Source: Croceivirga radicis
GTDB taxonomy: Bacteria; Bacteroidota; Bacteroidia; Flavobacteriales; Flavobacteriaceae
Assembly (NCBI RefSeq): GCF_002072105.2
Contig: NZ_MTBC01000003.1
Span: 124,001 to 188,000 of the forward strand
Direction of reading: 5' to 3'
DNA length: 64,000 bases
The notes beneath the pieces are model-generated. The model did no database searches and was not told the origin of the DNA. It saw nothing but the letters and a program-made list of their open reading frames with translations. Below are positions 16,380-19,975 of this stretch, in pieces (the first letter of the stretch is position 1; each line of letters starts with the position of its first letter). Position numbers and translations under genes: made by a program.

Positions 16380-17231
16380 CTAAAAAACTGTATCGGCCAA
16401 TTTAAATTGCAGTTTATCCTGATGTTTTTTTTGAGCCAGTAAGGCTATAGCTTCTGGCCTTAATTGAAGAATTCTAGGGTAACCTCCAGTTGTTTGCCCA
16501 TCTTTCATTAGAATTATAAGTCTTCCTGCTGGTGTAAATTGAACGGTACCTGGTTGTGTAGCCGCCGTTAAAATTGAAGTGTTATGCCCTACCAGCAACT
16601 CGTGTAATTGATAAGCCATTCGGTTATTCTCCTTTGCAATAGTAAACTGTTTGGAAAACAAGTGGGCCAACTGGTTATCAGTGAGTAAATGGAACTCCGG
16701 ACCTCTATCTACTAAAAGCGTTTCTTTAGCATAATTTTCTTTAGCTTTTAGCTCCGAAATTTTAGGCTGAAAACTATTGACCGCCCCATAATTTAAAACA
16801 TCTCCTTTTTCTAGTTTTACTGCCATAGTTAATGGAGCATACTGGGATGCGCTATTTAAAACGATTTCAGCGTTAAAACCATTTTTTACACCTAAATAAC
16901 AGCGTAAACCAGTATTTAATTTTCCAAATCTTAAGGTATCCCCAGCATTAACCTTGTAGATCTTATAATTGGTAATGGAAACTTTGTTTAATTGTGCCGA
17001 AAGGTCTGCACCACCCAAGCAGATAAAGGTTGGCTGGGTAAATACCAATTCTGGCCCCATCATAGTTATTTCGAGTATGGGAGTCGACGTGGGGTTTTCT
17101 AATAGACCATTTACCTTATTGTAAGCCTCATTGTCCATTACACCGCTTATTGGAACACCTTTGTTTCTATAACCAAACCTGCCCGCATCTTGTATGGTTG
17201 TATAAAAACCAGCTTTTATCACTTTAAGCAT
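16380..17231 (-). CDS. pxpC: 5-oxoprolinase subunit C (biotin-dependent carboxyltransferase-like)
   Basis: PxpABC hydrolyse 5-oxo-L-proline to glutamate at the cost of ATP. This 283-residue protein is the AHS2-domain subunit, typified by TIQDAGRFGYRNKGVPISGVMD at about residues 13-34, LGGADLSAQLN, and QPGTVQFTPAGRLIILMKDGQTTGGYPRI near the C-terminus. Its start codon overlaps the end of pxpB by 8 nt, which indicates translational coupling. The usual family length is about 290-330, so this one is compact. Confidence 0.92.
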   Translation of the reverse strand: MLKVIKAGFYTTIQDAGRFGYRNKGVPISGVMDNEAYNKVNGLLENPTSTPILEITMMGPELVFTQPTFICLGGADLSAQLNKVSITNYKIYKVNAGDTLRFGKLNTGLRCYLGVKNGFNAEIVLNSASQYAPLTMAVKLEKGDVLNYGAVNSFQPKISELKAKENYAKETLLVDRGPEFHLLTDNQLAHLFSKQFTIAKENNRMAYQLHELLVGHNTSILTAATQPGTVQFTPAGRLIILMKDGQTTGGYPRILQLRPEAIALLAQKKHQDKLQFKLADTVF

Positions 17232-17976
17232 CTATAACTACTTTTTCTGGTTCATAAATACCTACGTCCATTTGGATTTTGATATGCTCATATTCTGATT
17301 GGGAAATTGATTTAAATTGAACCTTATCGCCCACACTAAAAAAGCATGGATTACTTTTAGATACGTTGAATAGAGGAACAGGACAGTTACCAATTATGTT
17401 CCAACCCCCAGGGGATGCCTGCGGATAAATACCGGTTTGTTTTGACGCTAAACCTACAGCGCCTTTTTCAACTTTTAAACGTGGTACTGGTTTTCTTGGA
17501 ATTTCTAATATTTGCGGTAAACCACCTAAATACATGAACCCTGGCAAAAATCCAATACCATAAATTGTATAAACCGCTTCTGTATGCAGGTTAATAAGTT
17601 CATTTTTACTTAGTCCTAAAAAATTAGCCGCCTCGGATAAATCAATACCGTAAACCTCATCATAACATACCGGTAGAATCCATTTAACATGACGCTTAGA
17701 AGTAGTAAGCACTAAATTATTGTATTCCTTCCTAATTAATTCAACCAGTTCTTTATAAGAAAACAATTCAACCCCATTATAGATCAAGGTTAACGTGTTA
17801 TAAGATGAAATAAACTCCCAATCATTGTTTATTTTTTTCTTTAACGCTTTAGTTAATTGCAAATTAGCACTCAATATTTGTTCCGAAACATCCTCTTTCC
17901 ATGTAATCTCAATCGCTTTTTGTCCAAAGGGTTGAATTCTGATTGGCAAATGTTTGCTGTTATCTGATTTGGACAT
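17224..17976 (-). CDS. pxpB: 5-oxoprolinase subunit B
   Basis: The AHS1-domain subunit of the ATP-dependent 5-oxoprolinase (B. subtilis KipI relative), 250 residues. Family motifs are the N-terminal IRIQPFGQKAIEITW, VCYDEVYGIDL, YTIYGIGFLPGFMYLGGLP (about 140-158) and KGAVGLASKQTGIYPQASPGGWNIIG (about 175-200). It overlaps pxpA by 17 nt upstream and pxpC by 8 nt downstream. Confidence 0.93.
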   Translation of the reverse strand: MSKSDNSKHLPIRIQPFGQKAIEITWKEDVSEQILSANLQLTKALKKKINNDWEFISSYNTLTLIYNGVELFSYKELVELIRKEYNNLVLTTSKRHVKWILPVCYDEVYGIDLSEAANFLGLSKNELINLHTEAVYTIYGIGFLPGFMYLGGLPQILEIPRKPVPRLKVEKGAVGLASKQTGIYPQASPGGWNIIGNCPVPLFNVSKSNPCFFSVGDKVQFKSISQSEYEHIKIQMDVGIYEPEKVVIDA

Positions 17977-18694
17977 GATGTTCTGGTAATTTTGTTCTTA
18001 GATATTGCAAAATTTTGTGTGCATTTTCTGTATCACCATGTACACACAGGGTGTTTACTTTTATTTCTTGAAAAGAGTTATCTAAAGCTTTTACTCTATT
18101 TTCTTTAATCATAGGTAAAATGTGCGCCAAAATTTCTTCTTCATTTAAAATTAAAGCATTTACATCCTTCCTAGAAATTAACTTTAGATTCTTTTCATAA
18201 TTACGATCTGCAAAACCTTCAAAAAAGACTGGCAAATCATTTTTCTGACATAGTTCTGCAAGTACGGAATTATAAGGCGTATAAATTCCAATTGTATTGG
18301 AATGTTCTAGAACCACTTTTATAAATAATGCCGCCATATCATAATCATCTAACAATTGATTGTACAAAGCGCCATGCGCTTTAATATGGTGTAAATTTAC
18401 CCCATGTCTATTGGCCACTTTAAAAGCCAAATTTAATTGCTGGGAAAGACATTGTTTTAAATCATTTTCTGAAATATCCATGACCACTCTACCAAAATTT
18501 TCTTTATCTGGATATCCCGGATGCGCACCTATTCTCAAATTATAAGAATTTGCCAGTATTAGTGTTTTTTCAAAAAGTACTGGGTTTCCGGCATGTGCCC
18601 CACAGGCAATATTGCAACTACTCAACAAGGGAATTAAATGTTCTTCATTCCCAACACCCTCCCCTACATCTGCATTTAAATCTATGGTAAACAT
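17960..18694 (-). CDS. pxpA: 5-oxoprolinase subunit A (LamB/YcsF family)
   Basis: The catalytic-fold subunit of 5-oxoprolinase, 244 residues as usual for LamB/YcsF. Recognised blocks are DLNADVGEGVGNEEHLIPLLSSCNIACGAHAGNP at the N-terminus, GAHPGYPDKENFGR near residues 57-70, and HHIKAHGALYNQLLDD near residues 101-116. It starts 3 nt after the Nramp-like permease gene, the same order (ycsG-ycsF) as in Bacillus subtilis. Confidence 0.95.
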   Translation of the reverse strand: MFTIDLNADVGEGVGNEEHLIPLLSSCNIACGAHAGNPVLFEKTLILANSYNLRIGAHPGYPDKENFGRVVMDISENDLKQCLSQQLNLAFKVANRHGVNLHHIKAHGALYNQLLDDYDMAALFIKVVLEHSNTIGIYTPYNSVLAELCQKNDLPVFFEGFADRNYEKNLKLISRKDVNALILNEEEILAHILPMIKENRVKALDNSFQEIKVNTLCVHGDTENAHKILQYLRTKLPEHHVQIR

Positions 18695-18697
18695 CTT

Positions 18698-19891
18698 TTA
18701 TAAAATCCCGATTACTTTAACGATACTTCTTAATCCAAGAACAATGGATAAAACAATAATCAATAACGCCGTAAAGTTTTGCCATTTTGTATTAACGTAA
18801 TGGCGCATTATTTTTTTACTATTTACCAACCATAACAACAAGATTGCCATAATTGGCAAAAGTAGACCATTGGCTACTTGCGCAAATTTTATAATTTGAA
18901 TAGGCTTAAAATCAAATGAAAGGGAAAAAACTCCTATTAAAATTATTAAAAGCCAAACAGACCTAAACCGCCAGTCTTTTGTAGAAGCTTTCCAACCAAA
19001 ACAACTATTGGCTACATAAGCGGCCGCCAAAGGTGCGGTTATCGCAGAGGTCAATCCGGCTGCAAATAATCCTAATCCCATAAAAAAACGGGCACCAGCC
19101 CCAAACAAAGGTTCTAGACCCAATGCCAAATCCATAACCGTATTAATTTCACCCTTAGGAATAGCGGCAGAAGCAACAATAACAGCCATTGAAACCAGAC
19201 CACCAATACCTATTGAAAAAACCGTATCCCATTGCACCCATTTTAAGTCTCTATACGATTTCCATTTTTTATTTACCAAAGACGCATGCAGAAATAAATT
19301 GTAGGGTACAACCGTAGTACCTACCAAACTCACTACGGTAAACCAACTTCCTGTTTGTACCCTAGGTATAAACAAACCTTCTAACAATGGCAGTAATTTA
19401 GGTTTTGTTAGTACAGCAGTAATTAGAAATGAAATACTCATTAGACCAATCAGCACAATAAAAATACGTTCCAAATTTTTATAGCTACCAATCCAGAGTA
19501 AACCTATAGCGAAGGAACCAACTATAATTGGATATAGGGTATTTAATGTAGGCCCAAATATGGCTTCTAGGCCTAGAACTGCCCCACCTATATTGCCTGC
19601 TTCATAAGCTGTATTGCCAATTAAAATAGCGCCAAGGACTATTCCTAAAATAAGATATTTAAACCATGCTTGTCCTATCTCCTTGGTAATAGCATCTGCC
19701 AACCCCATTTTGGTTATTAGTCCCAACCGGGCTGCCATTTCTTGCAAAACCATTGTTGCCAAAATGGAAAGCAAAATTGCCCATAGCAAAGCAAAACCAA
19801 AACGAACACCGGCCAAGGAACAAGCTGTTATGGTTCCTGGACCTATAAAAGCAGCGGCCACTAGTACACCTGGCCCAATTTTTTTAAACAT
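18698..19891 (-). CDS. Nramp-fold permease lacking the metal-binding motifs
   Basis: A LeuT-fold membrane protein of the Nramp superfamily, 397 residues with about 11 helices. It aligns clearly with Nramp in helix 1 (KIGPGVLVAAAFI, then FGFALLWAILLS) and helix 6. However, the canonical metal motif DPGN is GPGT (residues 17-20), and the helix-6 (M/A)PH motif is VPY (195-197). The Asp, Asn, Met and His that handle Mn2+ or Fe2+ in the family are therefore all replaced. It is the first gene of a tight operon with pxpA, pxpB and pxpC and is the positional counterpart of B. subtilis YcsG. I infer an uptake role for 5-oxoproline or a related organic solute rather than a metal. Automatic annotation as a manganese transporter would probably be wrong. 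Confidence 0.85.
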   Translation of the reverse strand: MFKKIGPGVLVAAAFIGPGTITACSLAGVRFGFALLWAILLSILATMVLQEMAARLGLITKMGLADAITKEIGQAWFKYLILGIVLGAILIGNTAYEAGNIGGAVLGLEAIFGPTLNTLYPIIVGSFAIGLLWIGSYKNLERIFIVLIGLMSISFLITAVLTKPKLLPLLEGLFIPRVQTGSWFTVVSLVGTTVVPYNLFLHASLVNKKWKSYRDLKWVQWDTVFSIGIGGLVSMAVIVASAAIPKGEINTVMDLALGLEPLFGAGARFFMGLGLFAAGLTSAITAPLAAAYVANSCFGWKASTKDWRFRSVWLLIILIGVFSLSFDFKPIQIIKFAQVANGLLLPIMAILLLWLVNSKKIMRHYVNTKWQNFTALLIIVLSIVLGLRSIVKVIGIL

Positions 19892-19939: not shown

Positions 19940-19975
19940 GTGCATTTCATCTAAAAAAGTGTATTTCATCTAAAA
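19940..19975. repeat. Tandem 17-bp repeat in a divergent promoter region
   Basis: GTG(C/T)ATTTCATCTAAAA occurs at 19940-19956 and 19959-19975, two copies with one mismatch and a 19-bp period. They lie between the start of the Nramp-pxp operon (19891, minus) and the zinc-finger gene (20060, plus). This suggests paired protein-binding sites, possibly controlling the pxp operon. Confidence 0.55.

Follow-up and report, generated by a model that had tools for sequence, protein, structure and literature searches.

The Nramp-fold permease of a 5-oxoprolinase operon

The window analyzed here, a stretch of 64,000 nucleotides (nt) from Croceivirga radicis (contig NZ_MTBC01000003.1, positions 124,001 to 188,000), harbors on its minus strand an operon of four genes in which a permease of the Nramp fold, proposed to be a 5-oxoproline importer, is encoded together with the three subunits of 5-oxoprolinase. 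The permease gene (18698..19891) comprises an open reading frame (ORF) of 397 amino acids (aa) with a PF01566 match of 292 bits, and is followed by pxpA (17960..18694; subunit A, LamB/YcsF; PF03746, 248 bits), pxpB (17224..17976; subunit B; PF02682, CT_C_D) and pxpC (16380..17231; subunit C; PF02626, CT_A_B). The assignment of PxpA, PxpB and PxpC homologues to one operon was based on these Pfam families; with regard to the NCBIfam models, PxpB was above the cut-off of TIGR00370, the best PxpA score was 224.5 against a cut-off of 226, and the PxpC match was well below its cut-off. The original prediction for this locus, made from the letters alone, had described the permease as lying 3 nt from pxpA and co-oriented with pxpB and pxpC. 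The ORF coordinates agree: all four genes are on the minus strand, 3 nt separate the permease stop from the pxpA start, and pxpA/pxpB and pxpB/pxpC overlap.

In the characterized protein DraNramp, Mn2+ is described as being bound by D56, N59, M230 and two backbone carbonyls (PMC10185341), and H232 and a glutamate of transmembrane helix 3 (TM3) are also reported among the ligands in BfraNramp (PMC12873925). Profile alignment of the window permease to BfraNramp placed Gly17 at the position of the Asp, Thr20 at that of the Asn, Val195 at that of the Met, Tyr197 at that of the His and Asn100 at that of the TM3 Glu. All five known ligand positions were thus altered, and to the same residues throughout the clade described below, save one Ser for Thr. 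Both the DNA and this alignment bore out the original reading that DPGN is replaced by GPGT (residues 17–20) and MPH by VPY (195–197), with the metal-binding Asp, Asn, Met and His gone. The corresponding minus-strand codons are those of GPGT in the unwound part of TM1 (19832..19843), of YEAGN in TM3 (residues 96–100; 19592..19606), in which Asn100 replaces the conserved Nramp Glu and another conserved acidic residue, Glu97, lies one turn earlier, of VPYN in place of MPHN in the unwound part of TM6 (residues 195–198; 19298..19309), and of QVAN in TM10 (residues 338–341; 18869..18880). Gln338 is common with canonical Nramps and Asn341 is not, the canonical residues at these two positions being Q and L.

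Compared with canonical Nramp/MntH proteins (DraNramp, ScaDMT, BfraNramp), the window permease therefore retained the overall fold (PF01566), Gln338 and the NLFLH stretch, whereas the TM1 DPGN, the TM6 MPH, the TM3 glutamate (E134 in DraNramp, E116 in BfraNramp) and the Arg at alignment column 312 (TM9) were all absent. It fits the description of 'Nramp-related' proteins in the sense of Ray 2026, namely those without DPGN/MPH and without the TM3/TM9 proton-pathway residues, as defined in that source (PMC12873925); one acid, Glu97, stays in TM3. Despite the missing metal ligands, the permease is accepted by the NCBIfam equivalog model NF037982.1, 'Nramp family divalent metal transporter', with 87 bits against a cut-off of 50.

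The fetched loci yielded 199 distinct rows of Nramp-fold proteins, of which 148 scored at least 250 bits against the profile of the clade to which the window permease belongs, hereafter the GPGT clade; the remaining 51 comprised 32 with DPGN/MPHN, seven with GPGF/GGYI and 12 of further types. The clade had first been defined by the motif itself, and substitution of the profile score for that definition gave the identical 148 rows. Gly17, Pro18, Gly19, Asn100, Val195, Tyr197, Asn198, Gln338 and Asn341 were constant in all 148, so that GPG[TS] occurred in 148/148, with Thr20 being Ser in a single row; Glu97 was kept in 141 and was Gln in seven, and Pro196 was present in 131. Since 75 of the rows had been gathered with peptide patterns containing the motifs, they were excluded from the motif-conservation count, and the same residues were conserved in 73 out of 73 rows gathered otherwise. 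Because the motif residues are near-invariant over the 148 rows, the site is replaced under constraint in a conserved clade and has not decayed. None of the pxp-linked members that were read keeps DPGN or MPH, a finding that, had it been otherwise, was named beforehand as one that would speak against the proposal.

A structure prediction, suggested along with the original prediction as a check, was computed with AF2 from 47 sequences (mean predicted local distance difference test score 82, predicted template modeling score 0.84). The model adopted the Nramp fold, with predicted helix breaks in TM1 at residues 16–17 and in TM6 at 194–195, coinciding with the GPGT and VPYN motifs. In a Foldseek search, the ten best matches were all EleNRMT, DraNramp or BfraNramp (TM-score 0.83–0.89, by query length), EleNRMT, an Nramp-related and non-canonical protein, being at the top. 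The next structural neighbors past the Nramps were the amino-acid carriers ApcT, BasC and AdiC, which belong to another family and share only 13–16% identity with the permease over the structural alignment. The Gly-rich TM1 motif of these carriers binds amino-acid carboxylates, and GPGT resembles it.

Linkage to two families of lactam-opening enzymes

A search of 60 relatives gave, in addition to the permease of the window itself, 25 homologues sharing 50% identity or more, and pxpA and pxpB were adjacent in 24 of them; in the sole unlinked case, pxpA was located elsewhere in the genome. A scan of named genomes with the motif-containing peptide patterns mentioned above, the source of the 75 excluded rows, confirmed 589 relatives, of which the best 80 were used; by title these were from Flavobacteriaceae or near. 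In 77 of these 80 loci, the permease, pxpA, pxpB and pxpC followed each other in this order on one strand, including one locus (L132) where about 4 kb separate the permease from pxpA. The flanks of the other three (L084, L134 and L145) did not contain pxpABC, and pxpA was found elsewhere in each of these genomes. Directly 5' of the permease, L084 and L145 carry a DUF2891 gene (L084:5894-6997, L145:5839-6987), as does a further locus, L190 (L190:4874-5977), in which a gamma-glutamyltranspeptidase gene lies 3' of the permease. Since DUF2891 belongs to the DUF969/DUF979/DUF2891 cluster of Campylobacter jejuni, mutation of which is reported to abolish 5-oxoproline use (PMC12795558), it may, by analogy, take part in the metabolism of pyroglutamate.

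Permeases of the GPGT class are also encoded on haloarchaeal plasmids, at 42–47% identity and next to a different enzyme. Here, 23 records were matched and 12 opened. In 11 of the 12, a gene for HyuA, which family searches assigned together with HyuB to the hydantoinase/oxoprolinase family, lies 3' of the permease: the gap was 0 nt in nine, the two genes overlapped by 1 nt in L064, and in L181, which is truncated by the end of the record, HyuA was detected by tblastn only. HyuB was the successor of HyuA in all ten records reaching that far. The exception, from Natrononativus (L066), has no HyuA next to the permease, with HyuB and pxpA elsewhere on its plasmid. An adjacent partner was also missing in Pseudoalteromonas (L065), where pxpA is elsewhere in the record, and in Qipengyuania (L184), where neither enzyme is on that plasmid. 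PxpABC proteins are reported as dissimilar to the caprolactamase of the HyuAB family (PMC8453981).

Linkage to HyuA/HyuB was likewise observed in Bacteroidota, where a single fixed draw of 296 genomes, each with a completeness of 90% or more, was surveyed. A permease was counted as first-tier when it scored 450 bits or more, and the second tier comprised those with 250–340 bits to profile A1, plus the permease of genome G235 (27 loci). The draw contained 36 genomes with a first-tier and 26 with a second-tier permease, 57 with pxpA and 45 with HyuB. First-tier genomes carried pxpA in 35 of 36 cases, beside the permease in 31 (1.2 kb off in one of them); the only one lacking it, G338, encodes a HyuA-HyuB fusion of 1252 aa located 0.6 kb from the permease and convergent with it. 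Within the second tier, HyuA and HyuB were found within the fetched flank in 13 of the 27 loci, some of them 1–5 kb off, with five of the 27 having fetched flanks of at most 3 kb.

Every permease genome of the survey (62/62) carried pxpA (40) or HyuB (22), none having both, compared with 39 of the 234 other genomes; the 62 genomes represent 29 genera, and these counts are uncorrected for shared ancestry, for which reason the Fisher p-values computed from them are not taken as probabilities. G235, which fell under the score line yet has GPGT and pxpA, raises the co-occurrence to 63/63; it was the one GPGT case among 14 genomes scoring 205–223 bits, the others having DAGG (five) or DPGN (eight). 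As a control, pxpA or HyuB was present in 14 of 108 genomes with a canonical Nramp, which had been chosen by Pfam score and in 48 of which DPGN was read, and neither enzyme was within about 1.5 kb of the canonical gene in 30 out of 30 loci. Genomes bearing canonical Nramps thus mostly lack the lactam-opening enzymes that accompany the GPGT clade. pxpA and HyuB were themselves near-exclusive over the 296 genomes, only G339 having both.

The HyuAB partnership also bears on the breadth of the cargo, as enzymes of this type include hydantoinases and caprolactamase and act on hydantoins and caprolactam, fused forms being typical of oxoprolinases (PMC8453981). The permease could accordingly be a more general carrier for a related small lactam or acid (a hydantoin, another lactam or a gamma-glutamyl compound), with 5-oxoproline not being the cargo in every lineage. 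In line with this, the HyuA of the haloarchaeal locus L064 scored best against N-methylhydantoinase and caprolactamase models. Furthermore, genes of the Asp/Glu-racemase family lie 3' of HyuB in six haloarchaeal loci, and the product of the one that was tested (L178:9351-10043) was arylmalonate-decarboxylase/EutA-like; such a neighbor hints at a hydantoin or a racemized substrate. On the other side, the partner in the lineage of the window is PxpABC, known for 5-oxoproline (PMC13274462), and HyuA-HyuB proteins of the fused type, about 1265–1279 aa long, are encoded next to the permease in L194 and L205. Taking both sides together, we regard a general lactam carrier as rather unlikely, though worth keeping in mind.

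Two further loci with HyuA/HyuB deserve mention. In L196, an ORF of 1100 aa suggested a fusion between permease and HyuA, which was rejected, as its first part is an out-of-frame read-through and the permease itself occupies a different frame. In L201 (L201:4881-8518), a TRAP-type DctM permease gene is located directly 5' of the GPGT permease and HyuA/HyuB.

Relation to YcsG-type proteins and the candidate cargo

Nramp-fold proteins linked to pxp genes have previously been studied in the form of YcsG, PxpT and MumT, and the literature is in conflict about their cargo. In Corynebacterium glutamicum, PxpT was needed for growth on 5-oxoproline and the defect was complemented from a plasmid, although its authors were unable to rule out that it moves metals (PMC13274462). 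Mn2+ import, on the other hand, was reported in 2016 for MumT of Acinetobacter baumannii, deletion of which lowered Mn accumulation (PMC5050338), and in 2023 for YcsG of Bacillus subtilis, which was renamed MntG: its overexpression raised cellular Mn, and a mntH mntA ycsG triple mutant was obtainable only with an extra copy of ycsG (PMC10448178). The transport of 5-oxoproline is therefore an idea already known for YcsG/PxpT, from which the GPGT clade is distinct, as a separate branch.

In a tree of 72 rows, the GPGT class formed one group (support 96/95) and the YcsG type another, on a long branch (100/100), while the canonical rows and three other types fell into groups of their own; NRMT-like (DAGG) rows stood together as one group. 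PxpT was assigned to the YcsG branch on the basis of its reported 50% identity to YcsG (PMC13274462). The two branches have in common the Nramp fold (PF01566), the lack of DPGN/MPH, the residues Gly17, Asn100, Tyr197 and Asn341, and the pxp operon setting, with pxpA adjacent in 7/7 sampled YcsG-type loci. They differ at positions 20, 97, 195, 198 and 338, with Asn or Ser at 97 and Gly at 338 in the YcsG type; in the signature GPGF (TM1) plus GGTVGGY (TM6), found in 7/7 sampled YcsG-type members, one of them from A. baumannii, and absent from the window permease; and in a YcsI-type gene present in six of the seven sampled YcsG-type operons. The YcsG-type protein of Bacillus badius was 25% identical to the window permease. 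With regard to the original statement that ycsG of B. subtilis occupies the same place, the kind of operon is indeed the same; the position is not, ycsG being located downstream of pxpA (PMC13274462), and the protein belongs to a different branch. Two independent recruitments of the YcsG and window types were considered and not upheld: the best tree separates the two, but a tree forced to unite them as a single clade was not rejected (p-AU 0.41).

Several observations weigh against 5-oxoproline as the cargo, beginning with the Mn phenotypes of YcsG and MumT described above. The YcsG-type protein of B. badius and the pxp-operon homologue of A. baumannii, taken as MumT, also lack DPGN/MPH, and loss of the motifs alone does not, for this reason, exclude Mn. 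Moreover, EleNRMT is reported to move Mg2+ and Mn2+ without the canonical motif (PMC12873925). A canonical Nramp was present in only three of the 62 permease genomes, and in the genome of the window neither a canonical Nramp nor a ZnuA-type binding protein was found, the metal-uptake genes detected being two of the ZIP family only, so that the permease could be a substitute for MntH. The linkage itself is incomplete. pxpA is not adjacent in five of the 36 first-tier genomes, and no partner gene was seen in the flanks fetched for 14 of the 27 second-tier loci, their genomes carrying pxpA (six) or HyuB (eight) elsewhere; in a sub-branch of nine second-tier loci with V-T/A-YN in TM6, the partner is never adjacent. 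Our confidence was lowered slightly when five more of these unlinked second-tier loci were added. HyuAB also acts on several lactams, and the cargo could thus differ by lineage, with 5-oxoproline not being the sole common denominator. Finally, no published uptake assay for the GPGT clade was found in the open-licence PubMed Central literature.

A competing explanation arising from these points is that the permease imports divalent metals through a site that has been rebuilt. It would then supply Mn2+ or Mg2+ as a cofactor to the 5-oxoprolinases, PxpA being described as probably metal-dependent (PMC8453981), or would replace MntH, a canonical Nramp being absent from 59 of the 62 permease genomes. 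Besides the reports on YcsG, MumT and EleNRMT, the name attached by NF037982 speaks for this possibility. However, the five known ligand positions are substituted, and uniformly so across the clade apart from the one Ser. EleNRMT retains an Asp in its TM1 DAGG as well as the TM3 Glu, neither of which is found in the GPGT clade, and the window permease shares neither the DAGG-type TM1 nor the clade membership that would mark an EleNRMT-like Mg2+ transporter. Restriction to genomes with a lactam-opening enzyme (62/62) is not what one would predict for a general metal importer, and canonical Nramps show no such link (30/30 loci). Metal import is, in our judgment, improbable for the GPGT clade. 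Transport data showing Mn2+ or Fe2+ as the cargo, with no effect of 5-oxoproline, had been named in the original prediction as grounds for abandoning it; for the other branch this objection applies in part, Mn2+ import being reported for YcsG and MumT, against the 5-oxoproline data for PxpT.

The non-metal cargo put forward in the original prediction, plausibly 5-oxoproline, is instead favored by the clade-wide loss of the motifs and by the second linkage, to HyuA/HyuB, as far as genome comparison can indicate. From the linkage to two unrelated lactam-opening families together with the lost metal ligands, we infer that the cargo is probably 5-oxoproline or a close lactam. Being encoded with a 5-oxoprolinase, as is PxpT, the window permease would fall within the class of 5-oxoproline permeases, and we propose with good confidence that it acts as a 5-oxoproline importer on an Nramp scaffold, forming the uptake part of a 5-oxoproline utilization operon. 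Cargo, direction and coupling are inferred. Direction is not given by gene linkage alone, and an exporter could relieve the build-up of 5-oxoproline from spontaneous cyclization of glutamate or glutamine while PxpABC recycles it. As PxpT, of a YcsG-type system, was needed for growth on external 5-oxoproline (PMC13274462), and the characterized Nramps are described as importers (PMC12873925, PMC10185341), we consider export very improbable.

Under the importer model, the permease would operate as a LeuT-fold alternating-access carrier of the Nramp-related type, with a small cyclic lactam acid bound between the broken TM1 and TM6, at the site where canonical Nramps bind Mn2+/Fe2+. The pocket would be formed by the backbone amides of the GPGT glycines and Thr20, by Tyr197 and Asn198 (TM6), Asn100 (TM3) and Gln338 and Asn341 (TM10), and Glu97 might carry a coupling proton. 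The imported 5-oxoproline would be opened to glutamate by PxpABC in an ATP-dependent manner.

On a broader scale, the GPGT clade may represent metal-free Nramps, present across two domains, that were turned into proton-coupled lactam carriers by conversion of DPGN to an APC-like, Gly-rich, carboxylate-binding helix break and were paired separately with PxpABC and HyuAB; we put this forward tentatively, as somewhat less than an even prospect. If it were true, clade entries named 'Nramp family divalent metal transporter' would carry a wrong name, and indirect effects might account for the Mn2+ phenotypes seen with YcsG and MumT. It would also suggest a route by which a metal-carrier scaffold came to hold an organic acid. 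Automatic naming as a metal transporter is in any case unsafe for this clade. Since every surveyed genome that has the clade also has one of the two unrelated lactam-opening enzymes, the question of the cargo is directly testable. Searches of the open-licence literature mentioned above found nothing published about the GPGT class or about a link between Nramp proteins and hydantoinase/HyuAB, and the part of the Haloferax nitrogen-source expression data available to us (PMC6801745) contained nothing on the permease gene.

Additional features of the locus and genome

Two direct repeats of 17 nt, 19 nt apart, are located 5' of the permease start (19940..19975, no strand assigned) and might constitute an operator. 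Their 14-mer core occurs at only two further sites in the genome, as single exact copies, one of them within an ORF; as neither adjoins a pxp-like gene, a regulon defined by the repeat is not claimed.

The genome of the window encodes a second Nramp-related protein (L002, C3:37581-38654), with GTGSVT and MASATFL at the metal motifs. It adjoins genes for sugar-acid metabolism that, from reading the translations only, appear KDPG-aldolase-like and 2-keto-3-deoxygluconate-kinase-like. In another genome (G021, locus L030), two different Nramp-related genes are arranged in tandem, one of them with GPGS/SIVG and on a very long branch.

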